Source of the DNA: Nitrospirae bacterium GWB2_47_37
GTDB taxonomy: Bacteria; Nitrospirota; Thermodesulfovibrionia; Thermodesulfovibrionales; Dissulfurispiraceae
Assembly: GCA_001803635.1 (NCBI GenBank)
Contig: MHDU01000076.1
Location: 1 to 32,779, forward strand
Direction of reading: 5' to 3'
DNA length: 32,779 nt
Part shown: positions 1 through 15,812 of the stretch, piece by piece
How the letters are laid out: the number at the start of each line of letters is the position of its first letter
Position numbering within the stretch: the first letter of the stretch is position 1
The notes under the pieces: model-generated
The model's input: the letters and a program-made list of their open reading frames with translations, nothing else
Database searches by the model: none
What the model was told of the DNA's origin: nothing
Translations under genes and position numbers: made by a program

Positions 1-202
1 TCATGCTGCTTACTGCGATTGCCGCGCCGCACCCGAACGTCCTGAATTTTGCGTCTACGATCACGTCATTTTCGACCTTTATGAATAACTGCATTGCGTC
101 TCCGCAGGTCGGATTTCCTTCCATGCCCATGCCGTCGGCATCCTGAATTTCTCCGACGTTCCTCGGGTTCATAAAGTGATCCATAACTTTAGGGGAATAC
201 AT
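1..202 (-). CDS. iscU: IscU/NifU-type Fe-S cluster scaffold protein, N-terminal part (cut by window edge)
   Basis: The scaffold on which [2Fe-2S] clusters are assembled before delivery to apoproteins in the cytoplasm. The 67 visible codons begin MYSPKVMDHFMNPRNVGEI and include the first conserved cysteine in GNPTCGD, with its Asp, and the second in FRTFGCGAAIAVSS. Both are cluster-ligand motifs of the IscU family. A GGAGGTG ribosome-binding site lies just upstream of the ATG at 202. It is the last visible gene of an operon read rrf2, tusA-like, iscS-like, iscU, and starts 24 bases after the iscS-like stop. The third cysteine and the C-terminus lie outside the window, so it cannot be seen whether the gene is a short IscU or a longer NifU. 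Confidence 0.93.
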   Translation of the reverse strand, partial: MYSPKVMDHFMNPRNVGEIQDADGMGMEGNPTCGDAMQLFIKVENDVIVDAKFRTFGCGAAIAVSSM

Positions 203-226: not shown

Positions 227-1435
227 TCAGCCTGTATAACATTTTTCTCCTTCTCCGTGTCCTTCAAATCCCTTACCCCATCCCTTTGCAAACGGAGACA
301 TTTCCCTCAGCCTGTTAATTATCGGCGGAAACTCTCCGAGCAGGTAATCCACGTCTTCAACGGTATTGCCGGCTCCGAGGCTGAATACGATAGAACCCTG
401 CGCGAGGGCCGTAGGAACTCCGAGCGACAGTAAGACCGGTGATGATTTCAGCGCCTTTGACGAGCAGGCCGAACCGCTTGCCGCGTACATGCCTTTCATG
501 GAAAGCATTAACAGCATCGCCTCTCCTTCGATAAATTCTACGACAAAGCTCGCATGGTGGGGTAATCTTTTTTCGGGATGTCCGGTAAGATACACGTTTG
601 GAATTTTCAGTATACCCTCTATTATTCTATCCCTCAGTTTCTTGGAGTGTTCCATTCTCTTGTCCAACTCGCTCTTTGCAAGCTCCGCAGCCTTTCCCAT
701 ACCTGCTATAGCCGGAACATTCTCTGTGCCTGCCCTTCTGCCGCCTTCCTGAATGCCTCCGTAAACAAGGGGGACTATCCTGAGCCCCTCCCTCACATAG
801 AGAGCGCCCGCGCCCTTAGGACCGTAAAACTGGTGCGCTGCCATGCTCAAAAGATCGACGCCGAGATCATTAACGTCAACCGGGATATTCCCGACCGTTG
901 CAACGCCGTCCGCGTGAAATACGATATTATTTTCTTTAGCTATTTTGGCTATCTCCTTTATGGGCTCTATCGTGCCTATCTCGCTGCTCGCGTGTGTTAT
1001 GGAAATAAGGACGGTCTCTTTTGTAATAGAATTTTTAACCGTATCAGGATTTACGAGCCCGTGTTTATCGACAGGCAGATACGTTACGACAAACCCGTTC
1101 TTTTCAAGGAACCGGGCTGAATTAAGAATGGAATGATGCTCTACCTTGGAAACGATCACGTGCTTGCCGTGGTTCTGCTTGGCAAGGGCTATTCCCCTGA
1201 GGGCAAAGTTATTAGCCTCTGCTCCGCTTGCGGTAAAGACGACTGCGGACGGTTTCGCGTTTATCAGAGTAGCGACTCCCGTTCTCGCCTTTTCGATCGC
1301 GTCACGCGCCCTCATTCCAAGGTCGTATACGCTCAAGGGATTGCCGAAATCTTCCTTGAAATACGGCATCATTGCGTTCAGCACTTCCGGGTCAAGCGGA
1401 TTGGTTGCAACGTGGTCAAAATAACATTTAGTCAT
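227..1435 (-). CDS. IscS/NifS-family protein lacking the PLP-binding lysine
   Basis: The length (402 aa), fold-type I aminotransferase pattern and C-terminal GSACSSK loop identify the IscS/NifS family, which normally takes sulfur from cysteine using PLP and passes a persulfide to IscU. The persulfide cysteine is present (Cys324, E. coli Cys328), as are the ring-stacking His100 and Asp176. The Schiff-base lysine is replaced: the usual SGHK-YGPKG reads AAHQFYGPKG, with Gln202 encoded by CAG. Other PLP contacts also differ by my alignment to E. coli IscS: Thr76 to Ala72, Asn155 to Ser (HASSEIG), Gln183 to Ala179 and Ser203 to Ala199. The C-terminus ends in a Gly/Lys/Glu-rich tail. An AGGAG site lies 6 bases before the ATG. 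Archaeoglobus IscS is a known relative with Asp at the lysine position. Normal desulfurase chemistry looks unlikely. It may act as a sulfur relay or structural partner of IscU, which is inference. Confidence 0.93.
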   Translation of the reverse strand: MTKCYFDHVATNPLDPEVLNAMMPYFKEDFGNPLSVYDLGMRARDAIEKARTGVATLINAKPSAVVFTASGAEANNFALRGIALAKQNHGKHVIVSKVEHHSILNSARFLEKNGFVVTYLPVDKHGLVNPDTVKNSITKETVLISITHASSEIGTIEPIKEIAKIAKENNIVFHADGVATVGNIPVDVNDLGVDLLSMAAHQFYGPKGAGALYVREGLRIVPLVYGGIQEGGRRAGTENVPAIAGMGKAAELAKSELDKRMEHSKKLRDRIIEGILKIPNVYLTGHPEKRLPHHASFVVEFIEGEAMLLMLSMKGMYAASGSACSSKALKSSPVLLSLGVPTALAQGSIVFSLGAGNTVEDVDYLLGEFPPIINRLREMSPFAKGWGKGFEGHGEGEKCYTG

Positions 1436-1450: not shown

Positions 1451-1471
1451 TTCAGCCTATTGCACATTGCC
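1451..1471. repeat. Short heptanucleotide repeat over the tusA-like stop codon
   Basis: Three degenerate 7-base units of the form (T/C)ATTGC(A/C) with a partial flanking unit. They cover the end of the TusA-like gene and its TAG stop (1457-1459). It is short and would be unconvincing alone, but it matches the pattern of the longer heptamer arrays elsewhere in the window. Confidence 0.4.
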
Positions 1472-1714
1472 TGCCTTTCTCACATAAAACTTGTAATAAT
1501 CTTCGTCTTCGTCCATTCCTACAAATTCATTGCCTGTCCTTACGCACCACTGCGGTATATCTTCGAGTGCGCCGTCGTAATCGGTCAGTATCTCCAGCAC
1601 CTGTCCATTTTCGAGACTCCTTACCATCTCGTCGAGTTTCAGAAGATGCATAGGGCACATCATATATACAATGTCTGCGGTTATATCCGCCTTTACGCCG
1701 TGAACGAATTTCAT
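1457..1714 (-). CDS. TusA/SirA-like sulfur-carrier protein
   Basis: An 85-residue protein with the TusA-fold pattern. The sulfur-carrying cysteine sits in MMCPMHLLKL (Cys20-Pro21) at the start of the first helix, followed by a V/L-E-I-L-T-D strand, then D-IP-WC (Cys57) and a YYKFYVRK end like TusA's final strand. TusA proteins carry a persulfide between sulfur donors such as IscS and acceptors. The usual CPxP motif reads CPMH here, so the second proline is lost. It lies between the Rrf2 regulator (10 bases upstream) and the IscS-like gene (22 bases downstream), which argues for a role in Fe-S sulfur supply rather than tRNA thiolation. No strong ribosome-binding site is visible, so translation may be coupled to rrf2. 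Confidence 0.8.
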   Translation of the reverse strand: MKFVHGVKADITADIVYMMCPMHLLKLDEMVRSLENGQVLEILTDYDGALEDIPQWCVRTGNEFVGMDEDEDYYKFYVRKAGNVQ

Positions 1715-1723
1715 AAATACAGT

Positions 1724-2203
1724 TTAAGGCTGCGACTGCGGCTTCAGCCTTACGGGCCGCCGCATCTCCTTCTTAGCCGTACCTCCTAACGCATAAAAGT
1801 CTCCTGCCATCAAATTCTTAAGCGTTATGGTTTTAAGAAATGCCTCCACCTGCTCTCCCAATGCCTTCCACAGCAGATGGGTCACGCAGCTGTCGATGCG
1901 CACGCATCCGCCTTCGGGCTCAAGGCATGATGTAAGCGCTACAGGGCCCTCCAGTTCGTTTAAAATGGACGCTATGCTTATCTTATCGGCGCTCCGGTTC
2001 AGTATATAGCCGCCGCCGGGCCCTCTTATACTCTTGATTAATCCTGCCTTCCTGAGCTTATTGAGTATCTGCTCAAGGTAGGCTACGGAGACGTCCTGCC
2101 TTTCGGAAATCTCTTTGATGGTTACGGGCGTTGCGGGATATCCCCTCGCTATTTCGTACATGGCCCTTACGCCGTATTGTCCTTTTGTCGATAATCTCAG
2201 CAT
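1724..2203 (-). CDS. Rrf2/IscR-family Fe-S-sensing transcriptional regulator
   Basis: 159 residues with an N-terminal winged helix (LSTKGQYGVRAMYEIA, then a recognition-helix region ending IRGPGGGYIL), typical of Rrf2 proteins. A cysteine cluster near residues 93-106 reads C-x6-C-x5-C-x2-H. It matches the [2Fe-2S] ligand set of IscR (three Cys and one His) except that the first gap is one residue longer. As the first gene of the isc-like operon it most likely represses its own operon when it holds a cluster, which is inference from IscR. The start is fixed by the family's MxLSTKGxYG beginning. A 20-residue basic tail follows the usual end. No Shine-Dalgarno sequence precedes the ATG, and the promoter's -10 element ends only 6 bases before it. 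Confidence 0.92.
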   Translation of the reverse strand: MLRLSTKGQYGVRAMYEIARGYPATPVTIKEISERQDVSVAYLEQILNKLRKAGLIKSIRGPGGGYILNRSADKISIASILNELEGPVALTSCLEPEGGCVRIDSCVTHLLWKALGEQVEAFLKTITLKNLMAGDFYALGGTAKKEMRRPVRLKPQSQP

Positions 2204-15036: not shown

Positions 15037-15084
15037 TAATATAGACTACTATATTATATATCGGAGGATACGGCCAAAAATTAA
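15037..15084 (-). promoter_or_regulatory. Possible sigma-28 promoter and palindrome upstream of flgM
   Basis: On the minus strand, TTAA (plus 15081-15084), 15 bases, TCCGATAT (plus 15058-15065) resembles the flagellar sigma-28 form TAAA-N15-GCCGATAA with a few mismatches. Downstream, TAATATAG/CTATATTA is a perfect 8-bp inverted repeat with a 4-base centre (15037-15056), just before the flgM ribosome-binding site; it may fold in the transcript. The position suits a late promoter for flgM-flgN-flgK-flgL-csrA-fliW. Confidence 0.4.
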
Positions 15085-15812
15085 CCTGTAAACCGCTCAG
15101 GGTCGACAGGCGCCCCGTCTTTCCGCACCTCGAAATGCAGGTGCGGTCCGGTCGATCTGCCGGTCGAGCCGGACAGGGCGATGGTTTTCCCCTTGTCTAC
15201 AATATCACCTGCCTTTACAAGATTTAAGGAGTTATGCGCATAAAGGCTTGTCAAACCGTTCTCATGCTCTATTATTATGCAATTACCGTACCCGGACGAA
15301 TGTCCGCTGAAAACAACCTTACCGGAATCGGCGGATGCAACAGAGGTTCCTTCGGGAACGGCAATATCTATCCCATTGTGATGTCGAGATTTTCCGTCAA
15401 TGGGATCTTGCCTTAACCCGTACTGCGAACTCACCCTACCCTTAACCGGAAGCCCCAATTTCAGTTCGGAGTCTGGGGTTTGAAGTTTAGCTCCATCAAC
15501 TCCTAACTCATAACTCTTAACTCTTAATGCATCGCTGCCCTTGAGGAAAAATTCACCTATACCTATTCCCCTATTGTCGGCTATATCTTTAGCTATTTCG
15601 GCTGTTATATAAGGCATGTATGTGGAGATGACCCTGTCTTTGCCGAATGATGTCTGCTCCATCATAACCTTCAAAAATTCGTTCAAAAAAACATTTTCCA
15701 CTTGTTTCGCAATTACTTTAGGGTCGGAACTTTTCTGGACTTGAAATTCCGGCTTCAGAACATTTAACTCCTGTCCCTTAAGTGCGATTTGATTGCCGTC
15801 AGGTATTTTCAC
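15081..15812 (-). CDS. flgJ: FlgJ-type rod-binding domain fused to an M23 (LytM) peptidoglycan endopeptidase
   Basis: 243 residues in two parts. Residues 30-92 are the rod-binding domain (VIAKQVENVFLNEFLKVMMEQT...TAEIAKDIADNRGIGIGEFF). Residues 120-240 are an M23 metallopeptidase with zinc ligands His145 and Asp149 (HHNGIDI), His226 in HLH and catalytic His193 (YAH). All are present, so it should be active. Enteric FlgJ instead carries a glucosaminidase domain to open the cell wall for the rod, so here an endopeptidase takes that job. The linker (95-113) is encoded by a heptamer repeat. There is no signal peptide, as expected for FlgJ, which leaves by the flagellar export system. Its start overlaps the flgI stop by 4 bases. 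Confidence 0.95.
   Translation of the reverse strand: MKIPDGNQIALKGQELNVLKPEFQVQKSSDPKVIAKQVENVFLNEFLKVMMEQTSFGKDRVISTYMPYITAEIAKDIADNRGIGIGEFFLKGSDALRVKSYELGVDGAKLQTPDSELKLGLPVKGRVSSQYGLRQDPIDGKSRHHNGIDIAVPEGTSVASADSGKVVFSGHSSGYGNCIIIEHENGLTSLYAHNSLNLVKAGDIVDKGKTIALSGSTGRSTGPHLHFEVRKDGAPVDPERFTG
15491..15532. repeat. Heptanucleotide tandem array (6 units) in the flgJ domain linker
   Basis: Plus-strand units close to AACTCTT: six 7-base units without slippage, two of them identical. They encode roughly residues 95-108 between the rod-binding and peptidase domains. The position at a domain junction suggests repeat expansion shaped or joined this fusion. Confidence 0.8.

Follow-up and report, generated by a model that had tools for sequence, protein, structure and literature searches.

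A probable PLP-independent IscS-fold partner of IscU in an ISC-like operon of sulfidogenic Nitrospirota

Introduction

In bacteria, sulfur is commonly assumed to enter Fe-S clusters through cysteine desulfurase and, to our knowledge, Lys-less IscS proteins are known only from archaea (Archaeoglobus fulgidus and Methanosarcina acetivorans). In the literature covered, which lacks most subscription journals, no paper was found that deals with a bacterial Lys-less IscS or with the structures of the 9wfy series considered below, so that novelty is unproven.

In the PLP-dependent IscS of E. coli, Lys206 forms the Schiff base, Gln183 contacts the PLP phenolate, Asp180 contacts N1, Arg354 binds the substrate carboxylate and Cys328 carries the persulfide, while the K206A mutant retains a very slow formation of some intermediates (PMC9978102). 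A. fulgidus IscS has been reported to be without desulfurase activity, its cysteine being a cluster ligand together with IscU, and M. acetivorans IscS1 also lacks the catalytic Lys and has IscU1 as partner (PMC7585200). The minimal ISC system (MIS) consists of a cysteine desulfurase and a scaffold, with no carrier (PMC12192291).

The locus described here codes for a protein related to IscS, termed below the IscS-like protein, which resembles E. coli ISC in its fold, Cys loop, IscU partner and IscR-like regulator; moreover, the TusA of E. coli is a partner of IscS. The differences are that the IscS-like protein has no PLP lysine, and that its operon lacks IscA, HscAB and Fdx and contains tusA. 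As in MIS, the pair formed with IscU is not accompanied by cluster-carrier or chaperone genes, but MIS needs an active cysteine desulfurase whereas the IscS-like protein lacks the active-site residues of one. The archaeal proteins are similar in the absence of the catalytic Lys and in the IscU partner. The A. fulgidus IscS2-IscU complex (PDB 4eb5; D199K mutant, 4r5f) also keeps the loop Cys, and IscS2 has replaced the same three residues as the IscS-like protein (Lys by Asp, Gln183 by Ala, Arg354 by Leu), although it is only 46% identical and retains Thr76, Asn155 and Ser203.

Results

The iscS-like gene

The window (the whole stretch of 32,779 nucleotides analysed, from contig MHDU01000076.1 of Nitrospirae bacterium GWB2_47_37) contains the iscS-like gene on the minus strand, where its only intact frame lies, since on the plus strand the same span and frame is interrupted by stops. 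The relevant features are the following:

1435..227, minus strand: iscS-like gene (402 aa), product of IscS/NifS-type fold lacking the PLP lysine; Aminotran_5 (PF00266), 2e-80
830..832, minus strand: codon 202, CAG (Gln), at the position of the Schiff-base Lys (E. coli K206); minus-strand match CACCAGTTTTACGG
386..388, minus strand: Val350, by alignment at the position of the Arg for the substrate carboxylate (E. coli R354)
899..901, minus strand: Ala179, by alignment the counterpart of Gln183, which hydrogen-bonds the PLP phenolate
983..985, minus strand: Ser151, by alignment the counterpart of the pocket residue Asn155
464..466, minus strand: Cys324, retained persulfide/loop cysteine (E. coli C328); present in 91 of 91 aligned sequences
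239..241, minus strand: Cys399, in a short C-terminal tail; present in 78 of 91 aligned sequences

The protein has the class V aminotransferase fold, and its top Foldseek matches were IscS/NFS1 structures; the AlphaFold model, with a mean pLDDT of 74 and values below 50 in the Cys loop, was used only for the fold. With the curated NCBIfam models, it scored below the cut-offs of both NifS (TIGR03402, 491.7 versus 530.75 bits) and IscS (TIGR02006, 380.5 versus 643.2 bits). The segment that in IscS reads SGHKIYGPKG is AAHQFYGPKG in the window. A preliminary description of this DNA, which named no strand, had placed Gln202 at the Schiff-base lysine and had listed as changed the positions Thr76, Asn155, Gln183 and Ser203. 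The codon was read as stated, and by alignment those four positions (E. coli numbering) are occupied by Ala, Ser, Ala and Ala, respectively; two further changes, Arg354 to Val and Met151 to Thr, were absent from that description. The residues that it gave as conserved, His100, Asp176 and Cys324, correspond to E. coli His104, Asp180 and Cys328, and all three are indeed retained.

The cysteine of the C-terminal tail (KCYTG or similar; positions 227-241 of the window, and the tails of loci L044-L145) is gone in several lineages. A special relay role for Cys399 was given little weight, as the residue is absent from 13 of 91 sequences and the Lys-type IscS of the window's own genome also ends in Cys.

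Active-site residues and selection among relatives

The residues of 89 aligned IscS-like proteins (88 from Thermodesulfovibrionia and one from a second Nitrospirota family, f25, of another class) were compared with those of 26 sampled paralogues of Lys type found in these same lineages. All 26 paralogues have Lys206, Gln183 and Arg354, and none of the 89 IscS-like proteins has any of the three; for the lysine, this difference is much greater than chance would give. The IscS-like proteins have instead Gln (84), Glu (3), Met (1) or Ile (1) at the lysine position, Ala in 86 cases at that of Gln183 and Val in 88 cases at that of Arg354. Asn155, also found in 26/26 paralogues, occurred in only 2/89 IscS-like proteins, and Thr76 was missing from nearly all, its place being mostly taken by Ala. 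On the other hand, Cys328, His104, Asp180, Glu77 and Thr243 were conserved in 89/89, and His205 in all but one. In four copies (L058, L062, L084 and L139), the Asn155 position is taken by Arg, as it is in PDB 9wfy.

The dN/dS ratio was about 0.05 (0.05–0.06 in four pairs). The earlier view of an intact gene that is functional and not decaying is strongly supported. A sequencing error or decay in one genome was ruled out by the many independent assemblies, the absence of Lys from all 89 proteins and the dN/dS value. As the PLP-site residues are lost while the loop cysteine is kept and dN/dS is low, the enzyme site appears to be gone, with the loop cysteine and the fold under strong selection. 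There is strong support for the view that cysteine desulfuration with PLP is unlikely for the IscS-like protein and, by the features tested (no Lys, Gln or Arg; scores below curated cut-offs), it is not an IscS enzyme.

The operon

The neighbours of the iscS-like gene are these:

2203..1724, minus strand: Rrf2/IscR-like regulator gene, upstream of the iscS-like gene; three clustered cysteines, C-x6-C-x5-C
1714..1457, minus strand: tusA-like gene, upstream of the iscS-like gene; Pfam TusA, 1.3e-19; motif YMMCPMHLLKL (CPxP changed to CPMH)
202..1, minus strand: iscU, 5′ part only (the contig ends at base 1), downstream of the iscS-like gene; NifU_N

The operon with IscU, a TusA-like protein and an Rrf2 regulator, already recognized in the preliminary description, is borne out by the Pfam/NCBIfam matches and by gene order, as the arrangement rrf2 (IscR-like)-tusA-iscS-like-iscU occurs in nearly every sufficiently long locus among 80. 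No further conserved gene was seen around these four, and none of the genes within the conserved neighbourhood codes for a cluster carrier or chaperone. The top NCBIfam match of the regulator was IscR (TIGR02010), below the model cut-off, and its three clustered cysteines were found in 83 of 86 cases. The TusA-like protein has CPMH instead of CPxP in nearly all loci, and the IscU homologues retain all the cluster ligands (C37, D39, C63, H105 and C106). In family f25 the order is rrf2-iscS-like-iscU-tusA, with CPMP in the one TusA copy read; judged from these gene orders, the partnership of the four genes survives rearrangement.

Genomes of this group (G000, G007, G030, G044, G076 and others) contain five to eight TusA-domain genes each, so that there are numerous sulfur carriers, probably specialised ones, and the link between the IscS-like protein and TusA is less specific.

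Distribution in Nitrospirota

Among 100 related genomes searched, most of those of the order carry close orthologues (63–97% identity), while the Lys-type paralogues are about 40–50% identical. In 80 Thermodesulfovibrionia loci obtained from a genome scan, residue 202 was Gln in 79 and Met in one; in family f4 of the same order, it was Glu in three copies and Ile in one. Of 396 Nitrospirota genomes, 127 contained the motif HQ[FLIMV]..GPKG, which passes over f4. They belong without exception to f25 or the window's class, with no match in the other families sampled; the reversed control pattern gave only scattered matches. All 13 copies fetched from f25 are Lys-less, with GHQFYGPKG or AHQFYGPKG; a pattern requiring Ala before His-Gln passes over the 12 that have GHQ. 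The f25 copies show Ala in place of Gln183 and Leu in place of Arg354, but keep Asn155 and, mostly, Thr76. Since similar losses are found in f25, A. fulgidus and 9wfy, the trio Lys/Gln/Arg is their common core, beyond which Thermodesulfovibrionia went further.

Relatives of known structure

The best solved relatives are PDB 9wfy, 9wfe and 9wep, annotated as cysteine desulfurase (456–458 bits, 54% identity). In 9wfy, as in the window protein, the Lys is replaced (by Leu) and Val stands at Arg354, but Gln183 and Thr76 are Pro and Ile instead of Ala in both cases. The structures 9wfy and 9wep differ at nine PLP-pocket positions, and the family of the IscS-like protein deviates from the Lys-type residues at eight of the nine. 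From these differences we infer that the series stems from the experimental restoration of a natural PLP-less IscS, and likewise which member is the natural one. The Archaeoglobus protein, which the preliminary description had named as the closest known case, is a real precedent (PMC7585200) but not the closest, as it scores 389 bits against 456 for 9wfy.

A tree computed after removing the PLP-site columns unites the IscS-like protein with the f25 copy and 9wfy in one clade (support 100/97), and in an AU test a single clade enlarged by A. fulgidus IscS was not rejected (p 0.476). A single ancient loss is no more than possible. With Lys, Gln183 and Arg354 all replaced, the loop Cys kept and iscU adjacent, the IscS-like protein shares the sequence features of A. 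fulgidus IscS and looks to work like a Lys-less IscS of that type.

Fe-S assembly and sulfur genes in the genomes

The closed genome G044 and the near-complete genomes G016, G019, G032, G036, G038, G085 and G094 have exactly one NifU_N gene, that of the operon, and no SufB/D match was found in any of these eight, in which the operon is therefore probably the main Fe-S factory. Genomes with short SUFBD matches (316–377 aa), which may be SmsB of the SMS type, were counted as having an alternative scaffold and left out of this statement. In the two genomes tested of family f10, which is without the operon (G039 and G051), SufB was present and IscU was not found.

Most genomes with the IscS-like protein have, besides, one or two Lys-type desulfurases. 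The search for a second, canonical desulfurase suggested in the preliminary description detected two Lys-bearing ones in the window's own genome: a Lys-type IscS, which adjoins a NifU-type scaffold, and the product of another, NifS-like gene. Conversely, no Lys-type IscS, NifS or SufS was found in G076 and G094, which share a genus, in G268 and G370, from another one, or in G030; the strong matches remaining from the search were SerC in G094 and G268, with matches in the same score range in G076 and G370. The completeness of 87–98% makes the absence from both members of a genus suggestive, not final.

A dsrA match was obtained in 41/41 genomes tested, with or without the IscS-like protein (39 above the curated cut-off), which characterizes these cells as sulfite/sulfate-respiring or related sulfur-metabolising organisms. 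This fits a sulfide source but is no proof by itself, as lineages without the IscS-like protein carry dsrA too.

Discussion

Taken together, the sequence data make it probable that the IscS-like protein is a PLP-independent, non-desulfurase partner of IscU, with IscS/NifS fold, in an ISC-like operon of sulfidogenic Nitrospirota. It would obtain no sulfur from L-cysteine and would dock on IscU, and Cys324 in the mobile loop would either hand on persulfide from the TusA-like protein of the operon or lend a ligand to the nascent cluster, the ultimate sulfur presumably being the sulfide/sulfane pool of a cell that contains DsrAB. A TusA-fed relay through Cys324, whatever loads TusA, is quite plausible, if short of an even chance; the direct use of sulfide with Cys324 as cluster ligand, in the manner reported for A. 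fulgidus (PMC7585200), is given less credit, as a tentative alternative. Joining these elements into one proposal, namely that throughout Thermodesulfovibrionia and f25 a Lys-less IscS assists IscU and receives sulfur of the sulfide/sulfane pool through a TusA-like protein, with at least two genera having lost all their cysteine desulfurases, would be a rather unlikely outcome in all its parts.

The competing explanations differ in where the sulfur comes from and in what is left for the protein to do. Cysteine may be the ultimate source via TusA, given the one or two Lys-type desulfurases of most genomes: one of these, encoded elsewhere, would load the TusA-like protein, and the persulfide would pass through Cys324 to IscU, the IscS-like protein being a docking relay that keeps desulfuration and assembly apart. 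The presence of at least one Lys-type desulfurase in most genomes, and of two in the window's own, speaks for this, as do the tusA gene adjoining the iscS-like gene in nearly all loci, and present also in the f25 operon, and the binding of TusA to IscS in E. coli (solved complex 3lvj). Nevertheless, it is considered unlikely, and it cannot be universal unless the assemblies hide a desulfurase, because none of Lys type was detected in two genera (two genomes each) or in G030. Slightly less doubtful is a merely structural help, in which the protein closes over IscU and provides Cys324 as the fourth ligand of a cluster made from sulfide and iron, with TusA acting elsewhere. This has been reported for A. 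fulgidus IscS-IscU (PMC7585200); sulfide feeds IscU, replacing IscS, in E. coli without iscS (PMC13015791) and is the feed of the M. jannaschii SMS system in E. coli (PMC12192291); and the organisms carry dsrA. However, it leaves unexplained the tight linkage of tusA in two gene orders.

The two remaining explanations have much lower probability. The conservation of the PLP-touching residues H104, D180, H205 (all but one) and T243 makes weak PLP binding possible, and could be taken as a sign that the protein still works as a PLP enzyme, through a different base or with the cofactor bound non-covalently; this is very improbable with the Lys, the Gln that contacts the PLP phenolate and the Arg for the substrate all lost, and with residue 202 drifting among Gln, Glu, Met and Ile, which is odd for a catalytic residue. 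Even less credible is a relict or paralogue that serves in regulation or sulfur storage and not in Fe-S assembly: the degenerate catalytic site and the neighbouring IscR-like gene would agree with it, but the dN/dS of about 0.05 would not, nor would the fact that the iscU of the operon is the sole IscU in eight genomes without SufB/D.

What sets the present case apart is a Lys-less IscS that is bacterial, whose losses are fixed throughout a class and also in another family, and with tusA in its operon; in some genomes a second scaffold, or even any desulfurase, was not detected beside that operon. This suggests that a class of sulfide-making bacteria, and with it a related family, builds Fe-S clusters from a sulfur source other than cysteine desulfuration. 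If true, a bacterial pathway of Fe-S assembly would have dispensed with PLP chemistry. Whether sulfide or a carrier persulfide is the normal sulfur source of a bacterial IscU is a question testable with the four-gene cassette.

Some minor observations concern other genes. Positions 15081-15812 of the window (minus strand), in a flagellar gene cluster, code for an M23 peptidase joined to an N-terminal part that by eye resembles the rod-binding part of FlgJ and had no Pfam match at 1e-5. The Lys-type desulfurase genes of G044 (L175) and G032 (L181) adjoin two genes resembling, also by eye, YeeE/YedE-type sulfur transport proteins. Finally, a 1126-aa open reading frame of G035 (L193:731-4111; contig C1, about 851.7–855.1 kb) combines, according to Pfam, a molybdopterin oxidoreductase with a C-terminal, Lys-bearing desulfurase of IscS/NifS type, and desulfurase matches lie also within open frames of 1134–1145 aa in G022:C150, G348:C17 and G154:C142; the fusion possibly serves a built-in sulfuration of the Mo cofactor.
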